From contig NZ_JALKCH010000006.1 of the NCBI RefSeq assembly GCF_023016805.1, positions 186,001-250,000 on the forward strand: a DNA stretch of 64,000 nt, written 5' to 3'. A program made the position numbers and the translations under genes. Under the pieces are notes generated by a model. That model was not told where the DNA came from and made no database searches. It saw only the letters and a program-made list of their open reading frames with translations. Of the stretch, positions 17,080-32,275 are shown in pieces (the stretch's first letter is position 1; the number at the start of each line of letters is the position of its first letter). This DNA comes from Ancylobacter crimeensis (lineage in GTDB: Bacteria; Pseudomonadota; Alphaproteobacteria; Rhizobiales; Xanthobacteraceae).

Positions 17080-17637
17080 ATGAAACAGCCATCCTCTCAC
17101 CTGTTCGACGGCGACGGTCAGCGCAAATATTGTGACTGGAGTGAGTACGTGCGGCTTCGCGCGGTCGCGCAGCATTTGCCGCTGCACAAGAGCCTCTTCG
17201 TGCAACTCGTGGCGGTCAGCGGGTGCCGGATCTCCGAGGCGTTGGAAGTGAGCCTGTCGCGGGTCGGGACCGGATATGTCGTGCTGCGCACCCTCAAAAG
17301 GCGCACCACGGTCTACCGCCTCGTGCACCTGCCCGCACCGCTGGCGGCGCAGCTTCGCGCGCTCGCTAGGGGCGGCATGCCCGACCAGCGGCTATGGAGC
17401 GTCAACCGCAGCACGGCCTACCGCTGGGTAAAGCGCGCAATGCGGCTGGCCGATGTGCATGGCCGTCAGGCCTGCCCGCGTGGCCTGCGCCATGGCTTCG
17501 GCGCGCGTAACGTCATCGCCGGCACCCAGCTCAATTTCATCCAGAAATGGATGGGCCATGCCAGCCCGCGTTCGACCGTCATCTATATGGATGTGAGCGG
17601 CCCGGAAGAGCGCCAGTTGGCGAGCCGGACATGGTAG
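17080..17637 (+). CDS. minimal tyrosine recombinase, FimB/FimE-sized
   Basis: 185 residues, essentially only a catalytic domain. Visible active-site residues: Arg in SGCRISEALE, Lys in RTLKRRTTVY, Arg-His in RGLRHGFGARN, His in WMGHASPRST and the Tyr nucleophile in VIYMDVSG. The small size and lack of an arm-binding domain match FimB/FimE-like invertases and cassette recombinases rather than island integrases. It starts 15 bp beyond the inverted site at 17037-17065, which is the obvious substrate. Confidence 0.85.
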   Translation: MKQPSSHLFDGDGQRKYCDWSEYVRLRAVAQHLPLHKSLFVQLVAVSGCRISEALEVSLSRVGTGYVVLRTLKRRTTVYRLVHLPAPLAAQLRALARGGMPDQRLWSVNRSTAYRWVKRAMRLADVHGRQACPRGLRHGFGARNVIAGTQLNFIQKWMGHASPRSTVIYMDVSGPEERQLASRTW

Positions 17638-17647
17638 TGACCGCTCC

Positions 17648-17956
17648 CTATTCCAGGGGCTCATCCCGCATGAGCGTTTCGTAATCCATCCCGCCGGAGA
17701 AGACGCGCACGATCACGATGGCGCTCTCGGTGATGCGGTAGAAGACCACGATGCGGCCGAACATGGGATAGATGCGCAGCCCCGGCTTGATATCGGACCG
17801 GGCAGGCCCGAGTTCCGGGTGCTCGCAGAGCGTCCGGCACCGCTTCCTGATATCTTCCACGAAGCTGAAGGCGCGACGCGGATTCTCCGGCTCGATGTAG
17901 TCGTAAATTCCGTCGAGATCGTCCAGCGCGGCCGGGCGGTAGGTCAGCTCACGCAT
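17648..17956 (-). CDS. parE: RelE/ParE-family toxin
   Basis: 102 residues with the ParE pattern: RPAALDDLDGIYDYIEPENP, RCRTLCEHPELGPARSDI, GLRIYPMFGRIVVFYRI and a terminal VRVFSGGMDYE. ParE toxins poison gyrase; some relatives cleave mRNA. It overlaps the upstream antitoxin gene by 8 bp. Confidence 0.85.
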   Translation of the reverse strand: MRELTYRPAALDDLDGIYDYIEPENPRRAFSFVEDIRKRCRTLCEHPELGPARSDIKPGLRIYPMFGRIVVFYRITESAIVIVRVFSGGMDYETLMRDEPLE

Positions 17957-18236
17957 GATCGTCCGGAACGGCGAGCGACTTTTTCAGGCGCTCCGCAAAA
18001 TGCGTTTCCACCTCGGCCTCCGCCAAGGACGGGCGAGGGTCGTTCTCGGCCTCGTCGATCTTGGCGCGGATACGCGCAAGGCGTTCAGCGTGGTGCTGCT
18101 CCTGCTCTTGCCATGCCCTCATGGCTTCACGGATGACCTCGCTGTTCGAGGCGTAGCCGCCACCCTGCACCTTGGCGCGGATCATCCGCACCATGTCGGC
18201 CGGGAGCGTGATGCTCAGGCGTTCAACGTTCTGCAT
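17949..18236 (-). CDS. parD: ParD-family antitoxin
   Basis: 95 residues from ATG 18236, which has GGAGG 6 bases upstream. The N-terminal ribbon-helix-helix is clear (RLSITLPADMVRMIRAKVQG, YASNSEVIREAMRAW), followed by a charged toxin-binding tail. It precedes and overlaps the ParE toxin gene. Confidence 0.85.
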   Translation of the reverse strand: MQNVERLSITLPADMVRMIRAKVQGGGYASNSEVIREAMRAWQEQEQHHAERLARIRAKIDEAENDPRPSLAEAEVETHFAERLKKSLAVPDDHA

Positions 18237-18449
18237 GATAACCTCCATCCCACATAATGCCATTTTGTATTACTTTGTGCCACTCTTTTCGCGGCCATGC
18301 CCCAAGCTGCGCTCCCGCATGCCCGGCTGCTGATAGCTCAGCGGCATGTTCGATCGGCCTGCTGGTGGGCTGAGCCCGCAGCAGTGCCGCCCCTGTTCCT
18401 CTGCGTTTTGAGGGTGCGCCCGAAAGCTTGAACGGGCCCCGTATGCCCG

Positions 18450-18582
18450 GCGTCGGCCGCTTGTCCCGCTCCTGCCCGCTCCATTCGCTGCGCTCCCGTG
18501 TTGGGGACAAGCGGCCTCATCCGCCGGGCTCCTTTGGTGCCGTCCTTCGGGACGCGACCCATCAAACCAAAGGAGACAAACG
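18450..18582 (+). promoter_or_regulatory. plasmid-type leader, copy 2 of 3
   Basis: Contains GCCCGCTCCATTCGCTGCGC then TCCCGTG, enclosed by a 13-bp inverted repeat GGCCGCTTGTCCC/GGGGACAAGCGGCC. It ends with the strong AAAGGAGA site before ATG 18583. The core is shared with leaders at 9317-9452 and 26891-27013. Confidence 0.6.
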
Positions 18583-18822
18583 ATGGCTTACAACCGCAAC
18601 ACCCAGACCCGCCAACAGGCCGAATCCAAGCAGGCCGAAGGCAGACCCGTTTACCTCAACGCCCTCGTCGGCCGTGAAGGCAAGGACGACAAGGTCCACT
18701 GGAAGACCATTGGCGCGGCGTTCCCCGCCAAGAGCGGCGAAGGTTGGGACCTGGTGCTCGATGCCCTGCCGATCGACGGGCGCATCTACCTGCGCACCCC
18801 GACCGCCAAATCCGAAGCGTAG
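18583..18822 (+). CDS. small plasmid-type protein, unknown function
   Basis: 79 residues: a polar Gln/Lys-rich start, then PVYLNALVGREGKDDKVHWK, IGAAFPAKSGEGWDLVLDAL and GRIYLRTP. Short beta-rich proteins of this type are common next to plasmid adenine-methylase-like genes, as here. Strong ribosome binding site AAGGAGA. Confidence 0.65.
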   Translation: MAYNRNTQTRQQAESKQAEGRPVYLNALVGREGKDDKVHWKTIGAAFPAKSGEGWDLVLDALPIDGRIYLRTPTAKSEA

Positions 18823-18832
18823 GGAGGCGGCG

Positions 18833-19570
18833 ATGCAAACCCCCTTCCACAAGGAGTTCATCGCCACCCTCGGGAGTATCGGGCGCGATCGCGCCCGGTA
18901 CGACCGGTTCGGTGACTTCCTGGAGCTGGCCTATTGCGCCGTCGCCAAACAGACCGCCGACGCGCCGCGCGCCGAGCTGCTGGAGGCGCGGTACATGAAC
19001 GTGGTGAGGCGCTACCCGGCCGACGACATACGCGCGCTGCCGAAGCTACTGGCCCTCATCCAGCTCGCCCTCATCGAGGGCGGCTGTGACTTCCTCGGCG
19101 GCATCGCCGCCGAGCTGGGCGCGCTCGATACCGAGGCCGGGCAGTTCTTCACGCCCTACGAGGTATCCCGCCTGATGGCGGAGATCTCCATGGGCGATGC
19201 GCCTGCCGTCATTGCCGAACGCGGTTTCGTCACGCTCGACGAGCCCGCCTGCGGGGCGGGGTGCATGGTCATCGCTGCCGCCGATGCCCTCACGGCGACC
19301 GGGCACGATATCGGCCAGGCGCTCTATGTCGAGGCGGCCGACCTGTCGGCCACGGCGTTCAAGATGGCCTATCTCCAGCTCGCCGCGCGCGGCGTGCCCG
19401 CCCTTGTGCGCCATGCCGACAGCCTCAGGCCCGAATGCTTCGAGGCGGCATGGACGCCTGACATGGTGGGATTCCTCGCCTGCCATGGCGAGGCCTTCGC
19501 CCGTTGGCGCAGCGAAGCCCGCCCGGCCGAGCCCGCCCTGCGCGCCGGGCAACAGCTCCTGCTGCTGTAG
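18833..19570 (+). CDS. N-6 adenine DNA methylase-like protein
   Basis: 245 residues; ATG 18833 has AGGGAGG 5 bases upstream and starts 10 bases after the preceding stop. The region GQFFTPYEVSRLMAEI and the SAM-binding motif I LDEPACGAGCMVIAAADAL match HsdM-type methylases. The expected catalytic NPPY/NPPF motif is absent: the corresponding segment reads LRPECFEAAWTPDMV. It may be an inactive or antirestriction-type methylase, or a protein that needs a partner. No restriction subunit is nearby. Confidence 0.75.
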   Translation: MQTPFHKEFIATLGSIGRDRARYDRFGDFLELAYCAVAKQTADAPRAELLEARYMNVVRRYPADDIRALPKLLALIQLALIEGGCDFLGGIAAELGALDTEAGQFFTPYEVSRLMAEISMGDAPAVIAERGFVTLDEPACGAGCMVIAAADALTATGHDIGQALYVEAADLSATAFKMAYLQLAARGVPALVRHADSLRPECFEAAWTPDMVGFLACHGEAFARWRSEARPAEPALRAGQQLLLL

Positions 19571-19614
19571 CGGGGCTGGTCAGGTTCGAGGAATGTGGCG
19601 GCGCCTATGGCGCC

Positions 19615-19941
19615 CTACCGGGTAGGCCCTTTGTCCGCGGCCTTGCGTGCGCCCTCGCAGGCAGTCTGCAACGGGCTTTTATCCTCGCCCAGATCGACCG
19701 AAGCATGCCCGCCCAGCAAAAGCCCAACCCCAATAGGAAGGAGGTTGTCTTTCAATTTCTCCGGCATCTGCACATCGCCCTGCGGATGAGCGCCGTTACC
19801 ACAAATTATGTCCTTGGCCTCGGCCCTGATATTGGAAAGATCCTTGAGGTGGACGGTGGCGGAATTTCCGTGATTGTCCGTTATGGATGCTGAACGGGAT
19901 TTGTCGGTTTGGTTTAGCGAAATGTTGATGTCATCTGACAT
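19615..19941 (-). CDS. island protein family A, member 3
   Basis: 108 residues. GGHASVDLGEDKSPLQTACE and RKAADKG align closely with the gene at 9974-10390 and less closely with 14075-14482. The N-terminal half has the DNHGNSATVHLKD stretch equivalent to member 1. Upstream (19942-20143) is AT-rich. Confidence 0.6.
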   Translation of the reverse strand: MSDDINISLNQTDKSRSASITDNHGNSATVHLKDLSNIRAEAKDIICGNGAHPQGDVQMPEKLKDNLLPIGVGLLLGGHASVDLGEDKSPLQTACEGARKAADKGPTR

Positions 19942-20143
19942 AAATATCCTTTATTGTAGTTTATCAAAATAAAGATCGATTAATATCGAAATATTAACGG
20001 CATAATATTTCATTTTCATTAAGATGGGCGTGTCCGTCATGGGAATGCAATTCCGCCATCTATGCTGCCGTCGCAGTCGCGGTCCTGTTGCCAAGCTAAG
20101 CAAGGTTTCCGAAGATGGGGCGATCTTCCTGTGTGGGGCTTCG

Positions 20144-20713
20144 ATGCGCGATTTTCATCTGCGAATTTTAGCGGTGGCTGGCCTTGCCTCGTCGCTCTGC
20201 GGTTGTATCGATCTTGAGAACGATTTGGATCTCAAGATAGGCGTAGGTAATCGCAACGCATATGTTCAGGAATATGCGATCCATACGAGGGATTTTTATC
20301 AAAGAATAGGATACGATAAGAAACAATCCGGCGTGATAGCCTTGGCGTTCACTTCCTTCGTGCCGGATAATGATCGGAAAAAACTCACGCGGGAGCAGGT
20401 GCGGAATATATTCGCTTGTTCAATATCGGAGGGACGGCCGAATATCGTTCGGAAACACACGAAACTGGTAAATGACGCAATAGAAGTAATTGATGTCGGA
20501 TATCAGGGTTCGATGAGAGCTGGTAAGTCTGGAGACATTAATGCTGCGGATGAAGCTGTTCGAGCCCGTTACGGATACGATGTTATGGGTTGGCACGATC
20601 GGAATCGTCCGCGGATAGAAGCGGCCGTGCGGGAGTGGCGGGCGCAGGAATGCGCGACACAATATCAGACACGGAATTTCATTCAGGAGATCGGTGAGAA
20701 TCTCGTGCCTTAG
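20144..20713 (+). CDS. putative lipoprotein
   Basis: 189 residues from ATG 20144; the frame extends upstream to 20024 but without signal features. MRDFHLRILAVAGLASSLCG followed by Cys is a lipoprotein-like signal. The mature part has no recognised motif. Lower GC than its neighbours. Its 3' end overlaps the convergent membrane-protein gene by 35 bp. Confidence 0.55.
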   Translation: MRDFHLRILAVAGLASSLCGCIDLENDLDLKIGVGNRNAYVQEYAIHTRDFYQRIGYDKKQSGVIALAFTSFVPDNDRKKLTREQVRNIFACSISEGRPNIVRKHTKLVNDAIEVIDVGYQGSMRAGKSGDINAADEAVRARYGYDVMGWHDRNRPRIEAAVREWRAQECATQYQTRNFIQEIGENLVP

Positions 20714-21188
20714 CCATGCGGGCGAAGAGCTGGCCGCTTTTCACGACGATGCTGCCGACCACGACCATGATGACGAAGACCAAGGCATACCATTTAAAGA
20801 ATGATACCCATTTTATTAGGTTTTCGCTTGTGGTGAGGACCGCGCTGGGCTCGACGAAATCTTTCCCCGTGAGCCCCTTGTAAACGAGGGCGCGGTCTTC
20901 AGGCGTCGCGGCGATGGGCGGCGGCTCGATGATGGCCTCGTATACCGCAAGCAGCGCAAGGCCGACGAGGCCCGCGCCCCCGAGAAGGCGGATGCTGTTG
21001 CCGTAGAGGGTGAAATGCCGCGCGCCTGCTGCACCTCGAATGAGGCTGAGTGCGAACCATAGGAACAGCGCGAAAAGAGCGGCGGCAGTCGCATTGCCAG
21101 TGACGTATTCCAGTCCCCGAGCGAGGCCGTGGCTGCCTTCTCCCGCCGATTTCAGGGCGTTGCCGATGGAGTCAAAGACGTTTTCCAT
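20679..21188 (-). CDS. membrane protein, three predicted TM helices
   Basis: 169 residues with hydrophobic segments near 35-50 (AAALFALFLWFALSLI), 68-84 (LLGGAGLVGLALLAVYEA) and 132-150 (YALVFVIMVVVGSIVVK), and a charged C-tail. No family recognised. Confidence 0.6.
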   Translation of the reverse strand: MENVFDSIGNALKSAGEGSHGLARGLEYVTGNATAAALFALFLWFALSLIRGAAGARHFTLYGNSIRLLGGAGLVGLALLAVYEAIIEPPPIAATPEDRALVYKGLTGKDFVEPSAVLTTSENLIKWVSFFKWYALVFVIMVVVGSIVVKSGQLFARMAKARDSHRSPE

Positions 21189-21371
21189 GCGCCCCCCCGC
21201 GCTTAGCGTCCGATGTCGCGATATTGAACAGCAATAAGGCTATCGTCGTGTTTGGCCCGGCCAATTATCACTAGGAATGCCAGCCTGCAAAGAAATACAC
21301 GCCGATTCCCACGACCTCGACAACGGCAAGTCCCGTTTTCTTGCTGGCATCAAGGGCAATAGGGACGTCCC

Positions 21372-21701
21372 ATGTTGCCGCCGCCGACCTTGTTCGACCG
21401 CTTCATTGGCAGCCTGCCCGTGTTCCTGGCGCTGTGGGAGGGGTTCATCATCACCCTCATTCTGTGGTTCGACGGCAAGGCCCCCAACCAGTTCCTGCCG
21501 TTCATCCTCGGATTCCTCGCCATCGTCTCGAACGGCCGCCGTAACCACGTGGTGGCGGATGCGCGCTGGCAGGAGGAAAAATCCGTCGCCCTAGGCCGAC
21601 CGCTTCCCGCACCGTCACGCTGGCGCTTGCTCGTGCTTGTGCCCTTCTGGGCGGCGGCGCTGTTCCTCGCCTACCACTTCACGGCCGGGCTCATGGGCTA
21701 A
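21372..21701 (+). CDS. small membrane protein
   Basis: 109 residues. Hydrophobic helices near 12-30 (PVFLALWEGFIITLILWF), 40-52 and 85-105 (LLVLVPFWAAALFLAYHF) surround a charged loop. The layout resembles small low-affinity Fe/SMR-like or DUF-type membrane proteins, but no call is justified. Confidence 0.55.
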   Translation: MLPPPTLFDRFIGSLPVFLALWEGFIITLILWFDGKAPNQFLPFILGFLAIVSNGRRNHVVADARWQEEKSVALGRPLPAPSRWRLLVLVPFWAAALFLAYHFTAGLMG

Positions 21702-21716
21702 AACGGCAACGAGCTG

Positions 21717-21935
21717 GTGGCGCAGGCGTTCGAGATGACCGCGGCCGCGGCCCTGCATCCGCTGGCCCTGTACGGTGGCGTGGGGGTGCTTGGAGCCGCT
21801 ATCGGCCTTTCAGGCCTGCGCCGCCTCCTTCGCCGCCGTACGCGCCCGAAGGCGGCGCGCGCCCCCAAAGGCTGGGACGGCACGGTCCGCGTGATGCGTC
21901 CCGCACAGACGGATGACCACAGTAGAAATCAATAG
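21717..21935 (+). CDS. small membrane protein, single TM
   Basis: 72 residues from GTG 21717, or 66 from ATG 21735; no decisive ribosome binding site. A hydrophobic stretch (LALYGGVGVLGAAIGLSGL) precedes an Arg-rich cytoplasmic-type tail (RRLLRRRTRPKAARAPKG). It begins 15 bp after the preceding membrane-protein gene. Confidence 0.45.
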   Translation: MAQAFEMTAAAALHPLALYGGVGVLGAAIGLSGLRRLLRRRTRPKAARAPKGWDGTVRVMRPAQTDDHSRNQ

Positions 21936-22154
21936 AAATAATAATCTGCTAGTCTATAGTAATACGTAGAAATGCGAAGCATTTCCGGGGTGTTCCAACC
22001 TCAGCAAAAGCGGTTTGTGTGACCGTTATTCGCACTCCTCGACCTATCCGGTCGGGGAGGCATCGGCGTATGTTCAGGCACCTTGTGCTAAAGGTCGGTG
22101 CGCCTCTCTTTTGCAGGTTTGGAAACTCCCCGATCACCATCGTCCGGGAGACCT
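21932..22154 (+). promoter_or_regulatory. structured prepilin leader RNA, copy 1
   Basis: About 220 nt directly upstream of the first prepilin-like gene; copy 2 is at 23131-23354. Predicted helices: P0 GAAATGC/GCATTTC (21969-21985); long-range P1, TTCCAA-CCT-GCAAAAG (21993-22010) with CTTTTGC-AGG-TTGGAA (22108-22124); P2 GTGTGA/TCGCAC; P3 CTCCTCGACC/GGTCGGGGAG; P4 AGGC/GCCT. Last, CTCCC pairs with the GGGAG ribosome binding site. Each helix is conserved in copy 2, P1 with almost completely different bases. This suggests a cis-regulatory RNA with a sequestered ribosome binding site. Confidence 0.7.
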
Positions 22155-22970
22155 ATGCCGTCGAGTCATTGCAAAGGATTTTCACTTGTCGAATTGAGCA
22201 TCGTGCTCGTGATTCTCGGCCTGCTCACAGGTGGGATATTGGCGGGGCAATCGCTCATCCGCGCGGCTGAGCTGCGCTCTGTAGCAACGGAATATCAACG
22301 ATGGATTTCCGCTATTAATGGATTTCGTGACAAGTACATGGCAATCCCCGGTGATATGGCCAATGCGACGCGTTTCTGGCAGCGGATGCGTAACACGACC
22401 GATTGTGTGACCAATTCCAGCGCGACCGTCGTCGATACGGGTGTATGTGATGGCACGGGCGACGGGATGATCGCGTGGGATAACAGCGCCACGGGAGCCA
22501 CGCATGTCAACGAAATGCACCAGTTCTGGAGGCAACTGGCCGCCGCAGGGTTCATTGACGGGAACTATACAGGGTTCGCCATCAATAATTCGGCTAGCGT
22601 AGTTCCGGGAACCAATTCGCCGTCATCGAAATTGACCCATGCAGGATGGGGAGCCGGAGGAAAATACAATTGCGGAAGCAATGGAAGCCAGTGTTTTTAC
22701 GGTACGACAGCGTCAGTTTATAGAAATTACCTAGCATTTGGTGCTTACACCGGAGGAAATATTCCAAATACGGCTGTATTATTGCCTGATGAAGCCTGGA
22801 ACATTGACGTGAAGCTGGATGATGGAAAGCCGGGAACCGGCTTTATCATACCCCAATGGCGCGCTGCGAATCAGTGCACAACATCCAGCAGCAATACCGA
22901 CTATACGGGTACATACAACATGTCTAGCAGCACTGTGTACTGTTCTTTTCTGTTTGTGAACCCATTCTAG
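22155..22970 (+). CDS. prepilin-like protein 1
   Basis: 271 residues. The type IV prepilin N-terminus is clear: short leader ending in KG, then FSLVELSIVLVILGLLTGG with Glu5, cleaved and methylated by a prepilin peptidase in known systems. After the hydrophobic helix come a variable Cys-containing globular part and a C-terminal block EAWNIDVKLDDGKPGTG ending near a Cys, shared with the genes at 23355 and 24143 and the remnant at 30498. No peptidase, ATPase or platform protein is encoded in the window, so assembly would depend on host machinery. Confidence 0.85.
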   Translation: MPSSHCKGFSLVELSIVLVILGLLTGGILAGQSLIRAAELRSVATEYQRWISAINGFRDKYMAIPGDMANATRFWQRMRNTTDCVTNSSATVVDTGVCDGTGDGMIAWDNSATGATHVNEMHQFWRQLAAAGFIDGNYTGFAINNSASVVPGTNSPSSKLTHAGWGAGGKYNCGSNGSQCFYGTTASVYRNYLAFGAYTGGNIPNTAVLLPDEAWNIDVKLDDGKPGTGFIIPQWRAANQCTTSSSNTDYTGTYNMSSSTVYCSFLFVNPF

Positions 22971-23130
22971 CAGGTTGATTTAACGGAAAAAGCTCGGGTG
23001 AGATCGTGGCGCCCTTGCCCGAGCCCCAGATGCGGGATGCGCGCACGATCAGGAGAGGCCTTCACCTGTCGCGCCTGTAAATCCACTCCCGACACGCTGC
23101 GCGTGCAGAAGGATGGCTTCGGTAAAAATA

Positions 23131-23354
23131 AATAGAAATAATAATCTGATAGTCTATAGTAAAACGTAGAAATGCGAAGCGTTTCCGGAGTGTAGAAGCT
23201 TCTGTAAGAGCGGTTTGTGTGACCGTTACTCACACTCCTCGACCCTGCGGTCGGGGAGGCGTCGGCGTATGTTCAGGTCCTACGACTAAAGGCCGGTGCG
23301 ACCTTACTCTTACAGGTTCTTCTAACTCCCCGATCACCATCGTTCAGGAGGCCT
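23131..23354 (+). promoter_or_regulatory. structured prepilin leader RNA, copy 2
   Basis: Same helix plan as 21932-22154. P0 is GAAATGC/GCGTTTC (23169-23185, one U-G). P1 is TAGAAG (23193-23198) with CTTCTA (23319-23324) plus CTGTAAGAG (23202-23210) with CTCTTACAG (23307-23315). P2 is GTGTGA/TCACAC; P3 is CTCCTCGACC/GGTCGGGGAG with loop CTGC; P4 is AGGT/ACCT. CTCC is again placed to pair with the GGAG ribosome binding site. Loops and junctions such as CGGTTTGTGTGACCGTTA and ACTAAAGG are conserved while P1 bases change in pairs. Confidence 0.7.
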
Positions 23355-24134
23355 ATGCCATCCAGTCATTACAACGGATTCTCCCTTGTCGAATTGAGCA
23401 TCGTACTCGTCATCCTTGGATTGCTCACGGGCGGGATACTGGTGGGGCAAAGCCTGATACGCGTGGCAGAGCTGCGCAGCGTGACGGCGGATATGAGCCG
23501 TTATCTGTCGGCATTCCATGCGTTCCGCGACAGATACATGGCCGCGCCGGGCGACATGACGAACGCCACCCAATTCTGGGGCTCGGTGACGAGCGACGGG
23601 GCAAGCTGCCCGAACGGGCTCGGCACCGGCACACACACCTGCGACGGCAACGGTAACAACCGGCTCGATACATCGGACGGCGTTTATTACGAGGGAACAC
23701 GCTTCTGGCAGCACCTCGCCAATGCGGGGCTCATCGAGGGAAGCTATACCGGGGTGGTCGGGACTTCGCCGCGCTTCGTCATCGGGGAGAACCATCCAGC
23801 GGGAAAACTGTCGAACACGGCGTTCCGGGCCACGGCCTTCGGCGGGGCGACCTACGGCACCGGCTATACGGTGGTCTGGGGGCCTCAGACCAATGCGGGC
23901 ATCGGGTTCTTCTTCGGCTACGGTGCCAGTGCGACCGGCCCGGCGCTGGCACCGCAGGAAGCCTGGAACATCGACGCCAAGCTCGATGACGGCAAGCCCG
24001 ATTTCGGCACGGTACAAGGCGGCGGAGAAAATGCCAATTCCGCCTGCTACACGGCCTTCCCGTCGCCGGGGGACTACAACCTCACCGACAGCAACGTGCT
24101 GTGCGCGCTCACCTTCACGCTGGCGCGGAGGTGA
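23355..24134 (+). CDS. prepilin-like protein 2
   Basis: 259 residues. NGFSLVELSIVLVILGLLTG with Glu5 forms the prepilin signal and helix; then a variable domain, and the shared C-terminal block EAWNIDAKLDDGKPDFG. It is GC-richer than prepilin 1. It has its own leader, and its stop lies 8 bases before prepilin 3, so genes 2 and 3 should be one transcript. Confidence 0.85.
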   Translation: MPSSHYNGFSLVELSIVLVILGLLTGGILVGQSLIRVAELRSVTADMSRYLSAFHAFRDRYMAAPGDMTNATQFWGSVTSDGASCPNGLGTGTHTCDGNGNNRLDTSDGVYYEGTRFWQHLANAGLIEGSYTGVVGTSPRFVIGENHPAGKLSNTAFRATAFGGATYGTGYTVVWGPQTNAGIGFFFGYGASATGPALAPQEAWNIDAKLDDGKPDFGTVQGGGENANSACYTAFPSPGDYNLTDSNVLCALTFTLARR

Positions 24135-24142
24135 GAGCGATC

Positions 24143-24931
24143 ATGCATCCGCGTCACGGATTCTCCCTTGTCGAACTGTCCATCGTGCTGGTCATCCTCG
24201 GCCTGCTCACGGGCGGCATCCTCGCCGGGCAGTCGCTCATCCGCGCCGCCGAACTGCGCAGCGTCAGCGCCGAGTACAGCCGTTACAGCAGCGCCACCCA
24301 TGCATTCCGCGATAAATACCTGGCCCTCCCTGGCGATTTCAGCAACGCGACACGGTTCTGGGGCAGGCAGACAAGCACGGTGGATTGCGCCGCCAACGGC
24401 GGGGCGGCCGTCACGACTCCCGGCGCCTGCGACGGCGACGGTAGCGGCATCGTCAATCGAAAGGACGTCGGCGCCGGCGTGAGCACCGAGTTGTTCCAGT
24501 TCTGGCGTCATCTGGCGCTCGCCGGCCTGATCGAGGGCGAGTACTCCGGCCTCACGGTGGACAACGGCATAACCCCCACGGCCCAGAATGTGCCAAGTTC
24601 CAAACTAGGCAAGGGTCTGTGGTTCACCATCAAGCGCGTGCTGAGCGAGGAGGGCAGCGCCCCAGCCTATTTCTTCGATATCCCTTATGGCCATACGCTT
24701 CAGGTCGGCACGGCACGGGCCAGCGGTTCCAATATTGCCCCACTGTTTCGTCCGGCGGAGGCATGGAACATCGATACCAAATTGGACGACGGCCGACCCG
24801 GCCGGGGCAAGGCCATTGCGATCCAGTGGGACACGTGCACCGACGCTGCGGACAATACCAACCTCGACGCAGCCTATCTGCTGGGCGACAATAGCCTGCT
24901 GTGCGCGCTGCTGTTCGACAAGGCCTATTGA
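24143..24931 (+). CDS. prepilin-like protein 3
   Basis: 262 residues from ATG 24143. HGFSLVELSIVLVILGLLTG prepilin N-terminus, variable middle, and EAWNIDTKLDDGRPGRG near the end. It lacks the structured leader of its two upstream paralogues and uses GGAGG at 24127, overlapping the end of prepilin 2. Translation probably depends on transcription from the copy 2 leader. Confidence 0.85.
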   Translation: MHPRHGFSLVELSIVLVILGLLTGGILAGQSLIRAAELRSVSAEYSRYSSATHAFRDKYLALPGDFSNATRFWGRQTSTVDCAANGGAAVTTPGACDGDGSGIVNRKDVGAGVSTELFQFWRHLALAGLIEGEYSGLTVDNGITPTAQNVPSSKLGKGLWFTIKRVLSEEGSAPAYFFDIPYGHTLQVGTARASGSNIAPLFRPAEAWNIDTKLDDGRPGRGKAIAIQWDTCTDAADNTNLDAAYLLGDNSLLCALLFDKAY

Positions 24932-25025
24932 TCCATGCCTTGCTGAACCAATTGTGGCGCCGCACGATCGGCCGGCCGGCAGCAGGCCGACGATCAGGAG
25001 AGATCTTCACCCGCTGGCCCACGCC

Positions 25026-25220
25026 GTGCCGATTATCGCGAAAGAGCCCTTCCAGGTCTGGGCGCTCACCGTGGCCTCCGACCAGACGGGCGAACTCGCC
25101 TGCGAGGATGGCAATGGTCGCCCGGTCTACACCAAGCGCCTCACCTTCACCGACTTCCCGGCCGAGGGTATCCACTTCTTCCTTACCGACGCCGTACTGC
25201 TGCTCCCCAGCGAGTATTAG
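25026..25220 (+). CDS. small plasmid-type protein, possibly truncated
   Basis: 64 residues from GTG 25026: PFQVWALTVASDQTGELACE, RPVYTKRLTFTDFPAEG and HFFLTDAVLLLPSEY read as a coherent small domain. The frame is open further upstream into unrelated sequence, so the true 5' end may be lost. Confidence 0.5.
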   Translation: MPIIAKEPFQVWALTVASDQTGELACEDGNGRPVYTKRLTFTDFPAEGIHFFLTDAVLLLPSEY

Positions 25221-25300
25221 CGGCAGCAGGGGTGCGGCGCAGGCCACGCCCTTTCACGGCCCCCGCCTGTTGAGCGCCGTCGGGCGCGATCGTGGGCCGC

Positions 25301-25549
25301 TCACCCATCGCGGTCGTCTTTTAGGGGCAGTTTGTCCAAAGACGCATGCTCGGCCGCTATGCGCGACGCCGCGATCGCATCGATATCGGACGCAGAAAGG
25401 CTGGTGGTCGCGAATGCCTTACGACGGGAATCATGCCGCGCAGCAAGCGCCCGCAACGCATCGTCATCAAGCGCCCCGACCTTGTGAAGCGCAGCAGCCG
25501 AGACGAGGATCGCTTCTGAGCAGGCGTGTCTGGACCGGTGGCTCGTCAT
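25301..25549 (-). CDS. small hypothetical protein
   Basis: 82 residues, Ala-rich and helical (GALDDDALRALAARHDSRRK, SASDIDAIAASRIAAEHASL). It lies downstream of the HigA-like antitoxin on the same strand. No motif recognised. Confidence 0.4.
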   Translation of the reverse strand: MTSHRSRHACSEAILVSAAALHKVGALDDDALRALAARHDSRRKAFATTSLSASDIDAIAASRIAAEHASLDKLPLKDDRDG

Positions 25550-25561
25550 GCGGATGCATCC

Positions 25562-25864
25562 CTATCCTTGCGGCGCGGGCTCTAAGGTGATGCGCAGGCG
25601 CGTGCCCGTCGCCTCGGCGTAGCGCTTCAGCGTGCGGGTCGACGGCATAGTGCGCCCGCTCTCCAGCCGGCTCACCGCGCTCTCGGTCGTGCCCATCTTC
25701 GCGGCCACTTCGGCCTGCGTCAGATGCGCCCGCGCGCGCGCCTGGATCATCGAGGTGATCAGCGCGAACTCCTCCTCCAGCGCCTCATATTCGGCCCGGT
25801 AGGCCGGGTCCTTCATGTCCTGTGCGTGCACCTCCTGTGCACTGATCAGCTTGACCTTGCTCAT
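25562..25864 (-). CDS. higA: XRE-family antitoxin, HigA-like
   Basis: 100 residues. After a charged N-terminal helix, a Cro/XRE helix-turn-helix is clear: LTQAEVAAKMGTTESAVSRL then ESGRTMPSTRTLKRYAEATG. It overlaps the toxin stop by 3 bp, the usual toxin-first HigBA order. Because the toxin is frameshifted, this is probably an orphan antitoxin or regulator. Confidence 0.8.
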   Translation of the reverse strand: MSKVKLISAQEVHAQDMKDPAYRAEYEALEEEFALITSMIQARARAHLTQAEVAAKMGTTESAVSRLESGRTMPSTRTLKRYAEATGTRLRITLEPAPQG

Positions 25865-26177
25865 AGCACCTCCTTTGCCCGCTGCCGGGCCAGTTCCAGT
25901 TCCTTCCGTGGCGTCTTCTGGGTCTTCTTCTCGAATATCCTGACGATCACGACCCGCCGGCCGGCGCTGTCACATAGATCGCCCGCGCGATGCCATCCCT
26001 GCCGGTGATCCGCAGCTCCCACAGCTTGCCCTCGAGCGGCTTCACCCAGTCGCGCGGGAAATCCTGGAAGCCGTTCTGGCGGATGACAGCGAGCATCCGT
26101 CCCAGTCGGGCCTGCATGCCCAACGGCAATGCGGCTTCTTCAGCCTGCGCCGCCGGCAGATATTCCACTGTCCACAT
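25861..26177 (-). pseudogene. higB: HigB/RelE-type toxin with a frameshift
   Basis: The first frame encodes a phage-derived Gp49/HigB-like start (EYLPAAQAEEAALPLGMQAR, KPLEGKLWELRITGRDGIAR, AIYVTA) and stops at 25947. The expected ending (RRVVIVRIFEKKTQKTPRKE then LELARQRAKEVL) continues in another frame to the TGA at 25861 that overlaps higA. One missing base in the GCCGGCCGGCGG run near 25960 explains it. Confidence 0.75.
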
Positions 26178-26215
26178 GCAAAAGAACTTAGCAAAAATGA
26201 TAAGTCGTGTCCAGC

Positions 26216-26776
26216 TTATTCAGGCGGACCCGACGGCACGGGCCCCGACGCGTCTCCGGCCGGGCCTTGCTTGATCACTTCGCCGATCGCGACGAGAAGT
26301 GCGTGGGTACGAGCGGTCAGCGCCTCTGGATAAGGGAGCAGGAAAGATTGGGCGCCCTCCACATGCAGTCGCAACATCCGGCCGCTCTCCTCCGGTTCCA
26401 GCACGACCCTTGTTGCACGAGCCCGATCGTCGTTAGGGCAACGTCCGCTGCGACCAGGTGCTGCATGATCTCCGGCAACATCCATGCGAGCGCTTCGGCA
26501 AAGCACGGATGATCCGTCACATAGGGGCAGGACAGCGGCATGTGCTTCAGCGCCCGTTGGGCTTCCTCCCACACCGCTCGCCATACCTCGGCGGGTATCC
26601 CGTCCCGGGGGCTGGCTATAGCGTTGCGCCATCAACTCCCGGCCGCGCGCGGCAAGCTCGGTCACGTCCAGACAGCCATGGGCGCGATACGACCAGTCGA
26701 ACAGGTGCAGCACGAACGGGTCAGGCCGCTCCCGATAGCGCATGAGCGCCTGTATCGCTTCGCTGTTCCAGGGCAT
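26216..26776 (-). pseudogene. unknown gene with two compensating frameshifts
   Basis: From ATG 26776 the frame reads AIQALMRYRERPDPFVLHLF, then loses sense near a C5G3 run at about 26615. A second frame carries the plausible middle (VWRAVWEEAQRALKHMPLSC, FAEALAWMLPEIMQHLVAAD), and the first frame resumes with RVVLEPEESGRMLRLHVEGA. Joined, these give one protein of about 185 residues. No family recognised; either a decaying gene or sequencing error in GC runs. Confidence 0.5.
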
Positions 26777-26890
26777 CGGCCGGATTCTAAGCCGTGCAGG
26801 TGGATAATGCAGCCATACATCTGTGCCCCGATCGTCAGCGCCCACACCCGGCGAGGATGACCGCGAGCCATGACGGCGCGCGCCCCCTCG

Positions 26891-27013
26891 TCAATCTCCA
26901 GCCCGCTCCATTCGCTGCGCTCCCGTGTCGTCGGTGACGATGGGGCTCGTTCGCCCCATCAAACGTCCCGCGTCCCCGCAAGGGGCGTGTTCAACAATGA
27001 CGAAAGGGCCGAC
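26891..27013 (+). promoter_or_regulatory. plasmid-type leader, copy 3 of 3
   Basis: CAATCTCCAGCCCGCTCCAT then TCGCTGCGCTCCCGTGTCGT, a GATGGGG/CCCCATC hairpin, and GTGTTCAACAATGACGAAAG before ATG 27014. Nearly the same order of elements as the leader at 9317-9452; the last 20 bases match it except at a few positions. Confidence 0.6.
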
Positions 27014-27331
27014 ATGACCGACAGCGATTACACTTTCAGCACCACCCTCCAATGGGCTCAGCTCCCTATCCGCATCCGCTTCGCGCCCGCAAAATTCGGC
27101 GGGGTCATCTCCCACTTAGAACTGCGCTCCGACGGGCCGAACCCCATCACCTCGACGGGCTATCGCTCGCATTTCGTGCCCTGCGGCACCATCGAGGCCG
27201 AAGGCGGCCCCGAGGCCTTCACACGCGCATGGCTCGCTGAGGCCGAGGCCTCTGAGGAGTGGCAGGAGCATCTTGCCCGGTCGCGGCAGGGCGACCTGTT
27301 CGGGGGCGGCTGGAACGCTTTCACTCCGTGA
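27014..27331 (+). CDS. small plasmid-type protein, unknown function
   Basis: 105 residues, soluble: FGGVISHLELRSDGPNPITS, GYRSHFVPCGTIEAEGG and [20 protein letters not shown]. No known domain. The last part of its gene (about 75 bp) is duplicated at 29185-29258. It lies behind the third plasmid-type leader. Confidence 0.6.
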   Translation: MTDSDYTFSTTLQWAQLPIRIRFAPAKFGGVISHLELRSDGPNPITSTGYRSHFVPCGTIEAEGGPEAFTRAWLAEAEASEEWQEHLARSRQGDLFGGGWNAFTP

Positions 27332-27345
27332 ACTGTGTACCGTCC

Positions 27346-28323
27346 TCAAGCCCAGAGGGCTTCGGTCCGCCAGTTCGTGGGGAAGCCGGCGCTCTTGAGC
27401 GACAGAATGGGATTGGCCGGCATGGTGTCGAGATGCTCCACCAGCCGTTGCCCCCATGAGCTGGACGGGTTCACCACCTTCAGCATGCAGCGCATGATTG
27501 CCAGTGCGGCGTAAAGACGGGTCTGTCCGTGGATGTCGCCGTCGAGGTGGTCGAGGTCAGGGATTGCCCCCAAGGCTGGCCAGCGGGGCTGCGCCACGAG
27601 CGGTTTATTCCAGAGGCGGGAATGGTGCGCGCAGATGTTGCGCACGTCATTCAGGCACCGCAACCACGCCTCGAAGGCCTTGCCGGCCGAGAGGCCATAG
27701 CGCGCCGCGATGGTGTCTTGGTCCGCAATGGTCATGCCGGCGTAAAAATGCGAGAGCGCGCCAAAATCCAGCAACTCGACCGCTATCCAGATAGGTGGGT
27801 CGCTACTTGAATACCTCGCCTTGAAGTGCTTGGCGAAGTCCTCTTTCGAGCGGCGGAATTTGTCGTCCAGTCGGTCGAGCCATTCCTGGTGCGGGGTGAA
27901 TGTCGCGCCCTTCTTATTGCGGCGGGCAAAATTGCCATGGAGCACCTGAGGGTCGCGGTGCGCCCAAGCCCCGTGCTGGCCGAGCAGCAAGGCTATTTCC
28001 GTCCGCAGGGCGATCTCGATGCGTTCCAGCGCATCGAGGACGATCATGCGCAGCTTCTTATCGAAGACATACAGGCCGAGGATGGTCGGGAAGTCGGTTC
28101 CGTCTTGAAAGTCATCGAGCACCTGCGTTGCCGGAAGGCCCGTGGCGGCGTCAATGACCTGCTGCGACTTGCGGAACGGAAACCAGTACGCGCTGAGCCG
28201 ATAATACCCTATGCGCGCGAGGCAAGATTTTGCCTTGCCTATATCGGATATCACCATCCCCCTCGAAACTAAGAGGGCTACCTGCTGGTCAGTGGTGAGG
28301 TATGGCTTCCGATAGATGGTCAC
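27346..28323 (-). CDS. Abi_2 (AbiD/AbiF-like) HEPN protein
   Basis: 325 residues matching the Abi_2 family of abortive-infection proteins, which contain a HEPN RNase fold. Family stretches: KPYLTTDQQVALLVSRGM, CLARIGYYRLSAYWFPF, VFDKKLRMIVLDALERIEIA and the HEPN motif R228-N-I-C-A-H233 (DVRNICAHHSRLWN). Known relatives stop phage growth by RNA cleavage, and some are paired with a noncoding RNA antitoxin. A gene-free region with a perfect 21-bp hairpin lies just upstream. Confidence 0.85.
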   Translation of the reverse strand: MTIYRKPYLTTDQQVALLVSRGMVISDIGKAKSCLARIGYYRLSAYWFPFRKSQQVIDAATGLPATQVLDDFQDGTDFPTILGLYVFDKKLRMIVLDALERIEIALRTEIALLLGQHGAWAHRDPQVLHGNFARRNKKGATFTPHQEWLDRLDDKFRRSKEDFAKHFKARYSSSDPPIWIAVELLDFGALSHFYAGMTIADQDTIAARYGLSAGKAFEAWLRCLNDVRNICAHHSRLWNKPLVAQPRWPALGAIPDLDHLDGDIHGQTRLYAALAIMRCMLKVVNPSSSWGQRLVEHLDTMPANPILSLKSAGFPTNWRTEALWA

Positions 28324-29184: not shown

Positions 29185-29258
29185 GGCCCCGAGGCCTCCG
29201 AGGAATGGCAGGAGCATCTTGCCCGGTCGCGGCAGGGCGACCTGTTCGGGGGCGGTTA
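29185..29258 (+). repeat. partial copy of the 3' end of the 27014-27331 gene
   Basis: GGCGGCCCCGAGGCC then TCCGAGGAATGGCAGGAGCA and TTGCCCGGTCGCGGCAGGGC and GACCTGTTCGGGGGCGG repeat the end of the gene at 27014, with an internal deletion of about 33 bp. A recombination relic next to crcB. The rest of 29016-29255 holds nothing recognised. Confidence 0.7.
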
Positions 29259-29687
29259 GGCATCCTCCTCGATGGCGAGCTGCGCGACCTGGCGCGCACC
29301 TGCATTGAAATGCGCGGCGATGACATGCCCGAGGGCGACGGCCGCCACGCACAGCACGACGGATAGCCCGACATTGAGCGCTGCGCGCAGCGAGGCCCCC
29401 GCCCGCAACAGATCGAGGGTCTGGAGGCTGAAGGAGGAAAAGGTGGTGTAGCCCCCGCAGATGCCGATCATCACGAACAGCCGGACATTCTCCGAAACGG
29501 GGAAGCGGCCCGAGGCAAGGGTCAGGGTGCCGAACAGGCCGATGAGGAACGATCCGCTGATGTTGATAAGGATGGTGCCCCATGGCAGCGAGCGGCTGAT
29601 GGGCAGGGCGGCGACGGACACCGCGTAGCGCAGGAAGGTGCCGAGCGCGCCGCCGAGGATGACGATGAGGGTGGTGGTGAAAGACAT
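29256..29687 (-). CDS. crcB: fluoride channel CrcB/Fluc
   Basis: 143 residues, four hydrophobic segments. Family signatures: [13 protein letters not shown] near the N-terminus, [15 protein letters not shown] around residue 36-50 and [13 protein letters not shown] around 73-85, with the conserved Asn and Phe residues of the dual-topology fluoride pore. It exports fluoride from the cytoplasm. A fluoride riboswitch lies 62 bp upstream, so induction by fluoride is expected. Confidence 0.95.
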
Positions 29688-29936: not shown

Positions 29937-30491
29937 ATGGGCGTGATCTACGGCTATGCGAGGGTGTCAACGGACGGGCAGATGCTCGATGCGCAGCGGG
30001 CCGCGTTGAGCGACGCCGGAGCCGTGCGCGTGTTCGAGGAAACCGCCAGCGGTGCCCGCACCGACCGCCGCCAGCTCGCCCGCGCCATCCAGCAACTCGC
30101 CTCCGGTGACGTGCTCATGGTGACGCGCCTCGATCGCCTCGCCCGATCGCAGCGCGACCTTCTCAACATCCTTGCCGCGATCGGGGAGCGCGGAGCGCTG
30201 TTCCGTTCGCTGGCCGACGCATGGGCCGACACCACCACGCCGCACGGTCGCCTGATGCTTACCGTGTTGGGTGGACTGGCCGAGTTCGAGCGCGAGCTAA
30301 TCCGCTCTCGCACGGTCGAAGGCCGCGAGCGTGCGAGAGCGCGGGGTGTGAAGATGGGCCGCAAGCCGAAGCTCACGGCGCACCAGCGGGCCGAGGCGCT
30401 GGAACGCCGGAACAAGGGCGAGGAAAAGGTCAAGGACATCGCCAATAGCTACGGGGTGAGCCATTCGATGATTTCGAGGTTGCGGGCGTGA
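29937..30491 (+). CDS. serine resolvase/invertase of Tn3-resolvase type
   Basis: 184 residues. Catalytic Ser in IYGYARVSTDGQMLDAQ, then MVTRLDRLARSQRDLL and the hallmark LMLTVLGGLAEFERELIRSR. The C-terminal helix-turn-helix is KVKDIANSYGVSHSMISRLR. Length is typical of Tn3 resolvases. No transposase is left nearby, so it may act only on its own res-like site. Confidence 0.93.
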   Translation: MGVIYGYARVSTDGQMLDAQRAALSDAGAVRVFEETASGARTDRRQLARAIQQLASGDVLMVTRLDRLARSQRDLLNILAAIGERGALFRSLADAWADTTTPHGRLMLTVLGGLAEFERELIRSRTVEGRERARARGVKMGRKPKLTAHQRAEALERRNKGEEKVKDIANSYGVSHSMISRLRA

Positions 30492-30497
30492 ACATCG

Positions 30498-30970
30498 TCA
30501 GAACGGTTTGGTGAAGATCAGCGCGCAGCCGATGCTGCTACTGCTGAACAGGTAGGTGGCGCTTGTGTCGGTATTGGCCGTGGCCGTGGTGCAGGTCGTG
30601 ATGCGCCCGCCCATGATCGCACCGTTCGCAGGTTGCCCATCGTCCAGTTTCACATCGATGTTCCATGCCTCCTCGGGCTTCAGGGCTGCGTTCGAGGTGA
30701 TGTCGTTCGTATATGCGAGCCCGAAAACATAGAGGTTCCGACTGGGATTCAGCGGAAAGAAGTTCGGGGAGTTGAGATTGGTGTAGGTCATGCTCCATCC
30801 GGCTTTGCTAAGCCGAGAAGCGGGAACATTGGTTCCGATCAGTGCCGTGTCGGAGTCGCCACCATTGATACCAGTGAAGGTCCCCTCAACGAGCCCGGCG
30901 AGTGCCAATTGCCGCCAATATTGAAACATCTCGCCACTATCACCATTGGCGGAACCTGTGGGGCGAGCGC
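30498..30970 (-). pseudogene. 5'-truncated prepilin-like gene
   Basis: The reading frame matches the C-terminal two thirds of the prepilin-like proteins at 22155-24931: FQYWRQLALAGLVEGTFTG, VPASRLSKAGW and EAWNIDVKLDDGQPANG, ending SSIGCALIFTKPF. The prepilin signal and hydrophobic helix are missing. Homology stops near 30970, exactly where ParB-like sequence begins on the other strand. Confidence 0.75.
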
Positions 30971-30974
30971 AAGC

Positions 30975-32275
30975 GCATGCATCTGTCACCACCGACCATC
31001 CGCCGTGCCTTGACCGAGAACACGATTCCCGCCACGCACAAACTCGCGCGTTTCGTCGGCATCGACGCCTACACCGCCGCAGGCGGAGCCGTGATGCGTG
31101 ACCTGTTCGACATGCAGAATGAAGGTTTCCTCACCGACAGCGCATTGCTGATGCAGCTCGCTACCGACAAGCTCACCGCCGCCGAAGCGGAGGTACGGGC
31201 CGAGGGTTGGAAATGGGTACGCTCCGAACTGGAGACCGACCACTCCATCCGCTACGGGCGTATCGTTCCGTTGCAGCCTCTCACGACCGAGGACGACGAG
31301 GAGGCGGGCGAAGAGGGGGCGGAATACGACAAAGCCGAGACCTATCGCGAGAGTGACGACGACACCTGCGAGGAAGATGCAGAACCGGAAGAGGATGACA
31401 GCATCCCGCCCGTCTATGGCCCCGAGGACTTGGAGAAGGCAGGCGCGCTGCTCCGCATCACCCGTGACGGAACCCTCGATATCCTGCGCGGATTGGTGCA
31501 TCCCGACGACCAGCAGCGACCCGAGCGTCAGGGTGCATCCGATACCGTGAAGCCCGATGCTGCGAAGGGCGAATATGCCGCGACCATCGTGGAGGATTTG
31601 ACCGCCCACAAAACCGCCGCGATACGTCTTGAACTCTCCTGCGATACCGCCATGGCACTTGCCGTGACCGTCCACGCCATGACGCTCGAACTGCTTTACC
31701 CCTATGCGACGACAAGAAGTTGCATAAAGCTGCGCGTGGAGCGGGTCGAGCTGACGGGCCGGGTGAAAGCGCAGGAGGATTGCCCCGCCCATGCCGCCTT
31801 GCAGCAGCAGAAAGAGCATTGGGTCGGTATCCTCCCCGAGAACGCGGCCGACCTGTTCGAGTGGTGCATCAAGGCCGATGCGATGACCCTGTTCAACCTG
31901 CTGGCCTTCTGTACGGCCATGTCGGTCACGGCGGTGCGCGAGCGGCATTGGAAGGGAACGCCGCTTCATCTGCGACATGCCGAGCAACTGGCACAGGCCC
32001 TCAAGCTCGATATGACCAAGCACTGGCAGGGCACCGCCGATGGCTTTTACGGGAACGTGCCGAAGGCCGCACTGGTCCATGCCGTGAGCGAAGCGAGCGC
32101 GCCCATGGCGGTATCGGTGTCCAATCTCAAGAAGCAGGAAGCCGCCCGCTATGTGGCGAAGGCCATGGCGGGAACGGGGTGGTTGCCCGCACCGCTGCGC
32201 AGCGTAGAATCCGCGACCGTCGAGGGCGGGCAGGACGAAGCACGCATCGACATTTCTCAAGCCATTGCCGCCTGA
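30975..32275 (+). pseudogene. 5'-truncated plasmid ParB-like gene
   Basis: From TIRRALTENTIPATHKLARF onward it matches large plasmid-type ParB homologues (about 650-700 residues), including AYTAAGGAVMRDLF, WKWVRSELE, an acidic linker, and the conserved end IKADAMTLFNLLAFCTAMSV with HWQGTADGFYGNVPKAALV. The ParB/sulfiredoxin N-domain that should precede is absent. In-frame ATG codons upstream (30902) lie in unrelated sequence, so any product would lack the DNA-binding domain. Confidence 0.75.

Follow-up and report, generated by a model that had tools for sequence, protein, structure and literature searches.

Two prepilin-like genes of Ancylobacter crimeensis lie on the forward strand of the DNA analysed here, a stretch of 64,000 nucleotides called the window, and each is preceded by what looks like a structured RNA leader. 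Which kind of RNA is this and how might it act on the gene behind it? An earlier note, drawn from the letters of the window, had proposed twin leaders with the same helix plan, selected for RNA structure and belonging to no class that it recognised, and had placed them at 21932-22154 and 23131-23354.

Two leaders with a common fold

The two + strand leaders have one common fold and are about 1,200 bp apart, at about 21969-22154 and 23169-23354. The core of each stops 23 nt 5' of a prepilin-like gene start. The structures of the earlier note were thus recovered; its upstream limits were not, as a 5' hairpin opens the leaders at 21969 and 23169 and the cores run from 21987 and 23187. The features are as follows (R1 is a homologue-derived model, see below).

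21969-21985, +: 5' hairpin GAAAUGC-GAA-GCAUUUC opening leader copy A (sequence and predicted fold)
21987-22131, +: structured core of copy A with P0, P1, P2, P3 and P4 (R1, 123.7 bits, E 5.2e-25)
22050-22059, +: GGUCGGGGAG of copy A, 3' strand of P3 or 5' strand of the competing helix PA (sequence and own-versus-swapped duplex test on the family)
22060-22101, +: P4 of copy A with the conserved internal loop UAUGUUCAGG / CUAAAG
22126-22135, +: CUCCCCGAUC of copy A, 3' strand of P0 or PA; its CUCCC may alternatively pair with the ribosome site
22146-22150, +: ribosome site GGGAG of copy A, complement of CUCCC
22155-22970, +: prepilin-like gene A, 271 aa, N-terminal methylation motif (PF07963, E 1.9e-6)
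23169-23185, +: 5' hairpin GAAAUGC-GAA-GCGUUUC of copy B (sequence and predicted fold)
23187-23331, +: structured core of copy B (R1, 116.7 bits, E 1.7e-23)
23249-23258, +: GGUCGGGGAG of copy B, 3' strand of P3 or 5' strand of PA (sequence)
23326-23335, +: CUCCCCGAUC of copy B, 3' strand of P0 or PA (sequence)
23347-23351, +: ribosome site GGAGG of copy B; a pairing with CUCC would be limited to 4 bp and is not predicted
23355-24134, +: prepilin-like gene B, 259 aa, N-terminal methylation motif (PF07963, E 9.1e-6)

Copies A and B could be aligned end to end (repeats D1, D2 and D5), and the folding energy of both was better than in any of 200 dinucleotide shuffles (z -3.9 and -3.1). Because the leaders align throughout, as do the first codons of the genes, a duplication of leader plus gene start is suggested. 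The most diverged part is P1, while the loops are unchanged. Six two-sided compensating changes in P1 were counted by reading: four turn UUCCAA/UUGGAA into UAGAAG/CUUCUA and two GCAAAAG/CUUUUGC into GUAAGAG/CUCUUAC. So the shared helix plan, the P1 pairing kept by largely different sequences and the prepilin-like nature of both downstream genes, all claimed beforehand, were confirmed. A 5' hairpin of differing sequence was seen by eye at the same place in many homologues.

A third prepilin gene (24143-24931) follows 8 nt past the stop of gene B and has no leader of its own. A fourth prepilin fragment of the same family, with the N-terminus absent, lies on the - strand at 30498-30992, beside an ORF (29937-30491) that by reading resembles a resolvase. 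The region 17080-28323 looks mobile, with a phage-type integrase, a ParE toxin family gene and an Abi_2 gene. Two further RNA matches are on the - strand, an ordinary fluoride riboswitch (RF01734, 29745-29809) before a CrcB-fluoride-channel-like ORF (29256-29687) and the Bradyrhizobiaceae sRNA family BjrC174 (RF02355, 2757-2972).

Covariation, a competing helix and the relation to sRNA-Xcc1

Homologues were aligned by plain MAFFT, 9 sequences in alignment A2 and 49 in alignment A3, and R1 was built from the 49. Two-sided changes were present in 20 of 46 pairs among the 9 sequences and in 15 of 34 among the 49. R1 was then run on 97 sources and yielded 102 matches, 101 of them distinct (alignment A4). 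Here paired cells made up 95.6% and 32 of 34 pairs had two-sided changes, including 8/8 in P4 (helix 4) and 5/5 in helix 6, a local hairpin in the 3' strand. The covariation score of A4 was 0.629, compared with 0.067-0.113 with slid partners and 0.209 in shuffles, and none of 500 shuffles reached any of five measures; because A4 was fitted to the model and thus favours its structure, the plain alignments count too. G-U pairs were accepted on the strand of the gene, and the letters of the internal loop and junctions were kept across many hosts. In the window-type family the P1 strand gave -22.9 with its own partner and -15.7 with swapped partners (sd 0.30, 65 non-redundant sequences of 205), although such swap controls, here and below, overstate significance as the test sequences are related. 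The homologue alignment, which by the earlier note would have refuted its idea if free of covariation in P1-P4, shows covariation; together with the placement before starts it is strong support for 5' leaders under selection for their RNA structure.

The helix plan P0-P4 stood as far as the core helices are concerned. It lacked, however, a covarying pairing, GGUCGGGGAG/CUCCCCGAUC, which competes with P3 and P0. GGUCGGGGAG is complementary to the 5' strand of P3 as well as to CUCCCCGAUC at the 3' end, the latter pairing being PA. PA was favoured in the R1 branch (own -17.7, swapped -14.2, sd 0.27, 73 non-redundant sequences) and in the branch of the Rfam family sRNA-Xcc1, RF02221 (own -20.4, swapped -14.2, sd 0.38, 50 non-redundant sequences). 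P3 was less strongly favoured in the R1 set (own -13.1, swapped -10.8, sd 0.30), for which alone the test is cited since its two windows have 7 nt in common in the Xcc set. PA persisted with letters changed on both sides, as GAUCGGGGUG/CACCCCGAUC in L174 and GGUGCAGGAG/CUCCUGCGCC in L236, with a weaker partner for P3. Of the two strands of P1, the 5' one is located outside PA and the 3' one within it; formed at the same time, P1 and PA would thus make a pseudoknot. They may coexist in this way or alternate.

In the alignment PA corresponds to the helix that closes the Rfam sRNA-Xcc1 model. An Rfam search with the window copies hit no family, either at gathering or at E up to 10, and the cut-off of RF02221 (53 bits) was not reached. 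The statement that the leaders match no known class accordingly held for the copies themselves, but they have distant relatives in RF02221. The Rfam closing helix is present in both copies as GGUCGGGGAG / CUCCCCGAUC. The internal loop of P4 reads AAUACAAUA / GGGGAAUA in RF02221 and UAUGUUCAGG / CUAAAG in the window; by eye, the loop of L214 and the UAUACAACAG of plasmid copies are intermediate. In one family relative (L007) RF02221 scored 26.1 bits, below its cut-off, exactly at the leader RNA, and 7 of 24 weak RF02221 matches in 21 relatives were R1 matches. A scan of 385 genomes of the class (R1 at E up to 0.001, RF02221 at E up to 0.1) found R1 in 56, RF02221 in 63 and either in 83; with the stricter filters used for genome searches over 40 genomes, weak copies may have been missed. 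Among the 121 R1 and 129 RF02221 matches of these 385 genomes 28 coincided, on the same strand and with 3' ends 11-13 nt apart, and no coincidence was on opposite strands. One locus, L184, passed both cut-offs (RF02221 56.2 bits, R1 E 4.5e-10). In 299 genomes of the phylum RF02221 was found in 53 (E up to 0.01), 35 of them above its cut-off. R1 missed both of the two gammaproteobacterial RF02221 members that were tried, hence the branches are far apart and the link rests on the intermediates.

RF02221 spans just the 3' half of the structure, and its members hold the missing 5' strand of P1 upstream of the annotated sRNA; it preferred its own partner (-24.6, swapped -17.1, sd 0.37, 36 non-redundant sequences of 62). 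As judged from sequence, the window copies are distantly related to RF02221 within a wider superfamily joined by in-register intermediates, and sRNA-Xcc1 seems to represent just half of a leader of this kind. The position 5' of symE in integron cassettes, given in an excerpt of PMC12444791, fits the leader reading. According to the accessible part of PMC11701678, RF02221 is among the families improved with R-scape in Rfam 15, with two covarying pairs added. At the coordinate printed for sRNA-Xcc1 reads in E. coli NZ_CP008957 (excerpt of PMC5331693) no RF02221 match was found; perhaps another coordinate system was used. In the available excerpts of the open-licence PMC literature we found no description of sRNA-Xcc1 as a leader switch.

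Carriers and downstream genes

Homologues reside on hundreds of plasmids, mostly rhizobial, and also in phages and genomic islands. With the window leader as query, blastn of plasmids returned three records. Two of these were intergenic core matches, in Methylobacterium radiotolerans (R1 133.5 bits) and in the planctomycete Singulisphaera acidiphila (R1 98.8 bits). When the Methylobacterium copy was used as query, 324 of 72,556 plasmid records matched, 225 of them typed as conjugative; the Singulisphaera copy matched only 3 plasmid records. Methylorubrum extorquens CM4 also carries a copy, on its plasmid pCMU01. A pattern scan of species genomes retrieved at least 118 stretches, nearly all from Alphaproteobacteria as judged by titles and recall. 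One carrier, Modicisalibacter, we take to be a gammaproteobacterium, and two records are titled 'proteobacterium' only. The same kind of scan of viral contigs gave 5 stretches. Phage records did not match the window leader, whereas an RF02221-type query matched 27, with one annotated sRNA-Xcc1 among the 20 listed. Closer to home, only the two known copies were found in the genome of the window. By blastn 6 of 198 genomes of the family matched, the own genome included, and none of the 11 other listed genomes of the genus; R1 detected copies in two genomes of the genus (G022 and G198). R1 thus finds copies missed by blastn, which understates the patchy distribution. Three small alphaproteobacterial genomes (G505, G308 and G287) carry 17, 11 and 10 copies, with several kinds of genes downstream.

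The survey of downstream genes relied on a simple score for start codons; of 255 elements 42 were left out ahead of clustering, and some called ORFs in the resulting 138 protein clusters are surely wrong. Among the 25 of 60 Pfam families listed, HTH_3 occurred in 12 of the 138 clusters, glycosyltransferase 2, BamE and Rha in 3 each, ORF6N, Bro-N, DNA methylase and N_methyl in 2 each, and KilA-N and TraM in 1 each. The largest cluster comprised 40 loci with a protein of about 97 aa and a sub-threshold match to PF10074 (25.3 bits, cut-off 26.4), a family presumably connected to DUF2285. DUF2285 is a domain of the ICE antiactivator QseM, and the excerpt available of the paper in question mentions no leader, untranslated region or RNA structure (PMC10359603). 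Prepilins recurred downstream in L021, L188, L229, L234, L249, L256 and L261 (by reading sequences). In L021, a Rickettsiales MAG, twin leaders on the - strand (5979-6125 and 7065-7212) each stand 25 nt before a prepilin, and these twin prepilins look related to those of the window.

Is the RNA a dedicated prepilin switch? This was rejected. R1 had no match in 30 other loci of prepilin relatives (L296-L324 and L005, one locus per genome, the own locus L295 set apart), and the downstream genes are very diverse. Prepilins are therefore one client among many. The downstream genes have no evident common pathway; many are mobile or accessory, with roles in transfer control, phage control, modification or at the surface.

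Two Ti plasmids carry the leader before traM, NC_002377.1, which we take to be pTi15955, and pTiC58. The R1 scores are 52.1 and 63.9 bits, and 66-67 nt lie between the end of the match and the gene:

L326, 1523-1665: leader before traM (NC_002377.1)
L327, 1522-1668: leader before traM (NZ_KY000040.1)

These copies bear on an alternative in which a general host RNA-binding protein (Hfq, ProQ/FinO or similar) binds the leader and no small ligand is involved. A proteome study, seen in excerpt, lists lower TraM in an Agrobacterium hfq mutant (PMC4201532); TraM is encoded downstream of the pTiC58 copy and its decrease is consistent with post-transcriptional control, yet the effect is not mapped to the leader RNA. 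In NC_002377.1 a ProQ/FinO-family gene is situated just 5' of the leader, and a general chaperone would also suit downstream genes that share no evident pathway. Against this, the loop and junction letters kept across many hosts go beyond the needs of a general chaperone site. We consider this alternative rather unlikely.

Position before the start codon and a possible switch

From 267 collected elements, near-copies included, 60 were dropped for short flanks and 207 kept. In 165 of the 207 a start codon preceded by a ribosome site lay 8-90 nt downstream and opened an ORF of 45 codons or more, compared with 11 of 207 in the mirrored control. In 42 of the 165 the start is 10-39 nt past the core, the window type among them, and in 123 it is at 40-79 nt; plasmid copies of the latter platform often have an extra hairpin GCGGGGGCGYACCGC. 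By its placement the RNA is a cis leader.

Does the 3' strand reach the ribosome site? It paired better with its own downstream region than with swapped ones in the Xcc branch (-17.1 and -14.5, sd 0.43) and in the R1 branch (-15.0 and -13.5, sd 0.33). Parts of the 5' strand of P1 are repeated before the start in members of the RF02221 branch, CCTAAGAAA in L294 and CGTTAGAA in L195; in the Vibrio phage copy VPBES TCGAAA and CAAGGAAA occur in both places. Shared words were in clear excess in this branch (7.02 against 6.14, sd 0.15, 49 non-redundant sequences) and less so in the window branch (5.95 against 5.57, sd 0.11, 74 non-redundant sequences). On a Pseudomonas plasmid (L163, 1187-1299) the sRNA-Xcc1 strand CCUCUGCUUGG complements CCAAGCAGAGG immediately 5' of a BRO gene start. 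The own-versus-swapped tests favour mutually exclusive helices that reach the expression signal family-wide; in the predicted folds copy A conforms to this and copy B does not.

The earlier note had both leaders end in a CTCC placed to pair with the ribosome site. This is plausible in copy A, where CUCCC/GGGAG is predicted and 12 of 200 shuffles of the 37-nt piece fold equally well; for copy B, with its 4 bp, it is not predicted. The ribosome site of copy A had a predicted open probability of 0.42 when free, 0.00 with the 5' strand blocked and 0.07 with PA forced, and in copy B a local hairpin kept the site shut under each of these conditions (0.00-0.02); nearest-neighbour folding cannot treat a pseudoknot, so these values are weak evidence. 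In the folding model, a ribosome site that is on when P1 forms is supported for copy A and unsupported for copy B.

Sequence does not distinguish between riboswitch, thermosensor and protein-binding leader. A different role, a trans-acting sRNA released from or independent of the downstream gene, has been published for sRNA-Xcc1. In the accessible part of PMC2996969 a single Northern band of about 100 nt is reported from Xanthomonas, with a length of 88 nt by RACE. This is close to the 87 positions of the PA-closed Rfam model, and a PA-closed domain may be stable in vivo; an excerpt of PMC12189769 reports Xylella copies among the sRNAs of extracellular vesicles. As the RACE length is that of the PA-closed part, we read the 88-nt RNA as a piece of a longer leader. 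A trans-acting RNA is improbable in view of the 165 of 207 copies before a ribosome site and start, of the P1 strand that precedes the annotated sRNA and of a 3' strand fitted to the ribosome-site region of its own gene. If the 88-nt piece arises by processing, both modes could operate. A thermosensor acting on the ribosome site would make use of the CUCC that is able to cover the site of copy A; a fold of 145 nt, a fixed loop core and several long competing helices are far beyond its need and argue against a plain thermosensor, which is very improbable. That a DNA element (recombination site, origin of transfer or transposon end) merely resembles RNA structure, as the patchy occurrence, often on conjugative plasmids, might suggest, is hardly tenable in view of the G-U pairs on the gene's strand, a position and orientation that track the gene and one homologue that is a proven transcript (excerpt of PMC2996969).

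The cis-acting leader is therefore the reading we favour. The fold with P1 enclosing P2, P3 and P4 is conserved, PA competes with P3 and P0, the 3' strand has competing pairings, and the link to RF02221 exists. As the 3' strand is able to pair with the 5' strand or, alternatively, close to the ribosome site, a translational switch that is on when P1 forms is favoured. Folding of the core, aided by a partner, would let P1 and P0 or PA keep the 3' strand off the ribosome site, and the gene would be translated. In the unfolded core the 3' strand would cover the site. In the window such a switch would set the translation of the two prepilin-like genes. We infer the direction of the switch and the existence of a ligand; favoured is a response to one common cellular signal, a small molecule or host factor. 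Some data point the other way. With PA forced the site of copy A is mostly closed, which leaves the on-state unsettled, the local hairpin of helix 6 competes with inner P1, and the RF02221 branch shows the downstream mimicry more strongly than the window-type branch does. Taken jointly, the leaders are probably members of a large superfamily of switch-like RNAs that act in cis on mobile and accessory genes, with RF02221 as the 3' half of a divergent branch and with translation on when P1 forms.

Members of this large and barely described superfamily stand in front of a wide variety of genes carried by plasmids, phages and genomic islands. Tentatively, we go one step further. It may be a hitherto unrecognised class of ligand-sensing RNAs common to mobile elements of Alpha- and Gammaproteobacteria and to at least one planctomycete plasmid, in which one sensor for one signal serves antiactivators of conjugation (TraM, DUF2285-like), antirepressors of phages, HTH regulators, modification enzymes and surface proteins such as prepilins, with sRNA-Xcc1 as a truncated half. 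If true, one signal of the cell is sensed alike by plasmids, phages and islands, and naming it would tell what the mobile elements of many proteobacteria listen to. A published family of virulence-linked trans-acting sRNAs would turn into half of a cis-acting switch, with a model ready for tests. Via traM of the two Ti plasmids, a quorum-sensing circuit that has been studied in depth may include RNA control that has escaped notice.

How does this compare with known systems? The c-di-GMP-I (GEMM) riboswitch precedes some surface and pilus genes and in this respect is like the window leaders; the Rfam search found no match to it in the window, and the lack of resemblance asserted in the earlier note was borne out. 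RF02221 shares with the window the PA closing helix, the P4 hairpin with an asymmetric internal loop and the 3' strand of P1. It differs in that its 87-nt model has no P1 5' strand, P2 or 5' hairpin, and it is typed in Rfam as an sRNA gene and described as trans-acting, whereas the window RNA is a leader. Riboswitches with translational expression platforms combine a conserved core, a position in the 5' leader and an alternative pairing at the ribosome site. The first two are shared by the window family, and the third is favoured family-wide by the swap tests and predicted for copy A, not for copy B; the family is set apart from those riboswitches by downstream genes that have no evident metabolic pathway in common.
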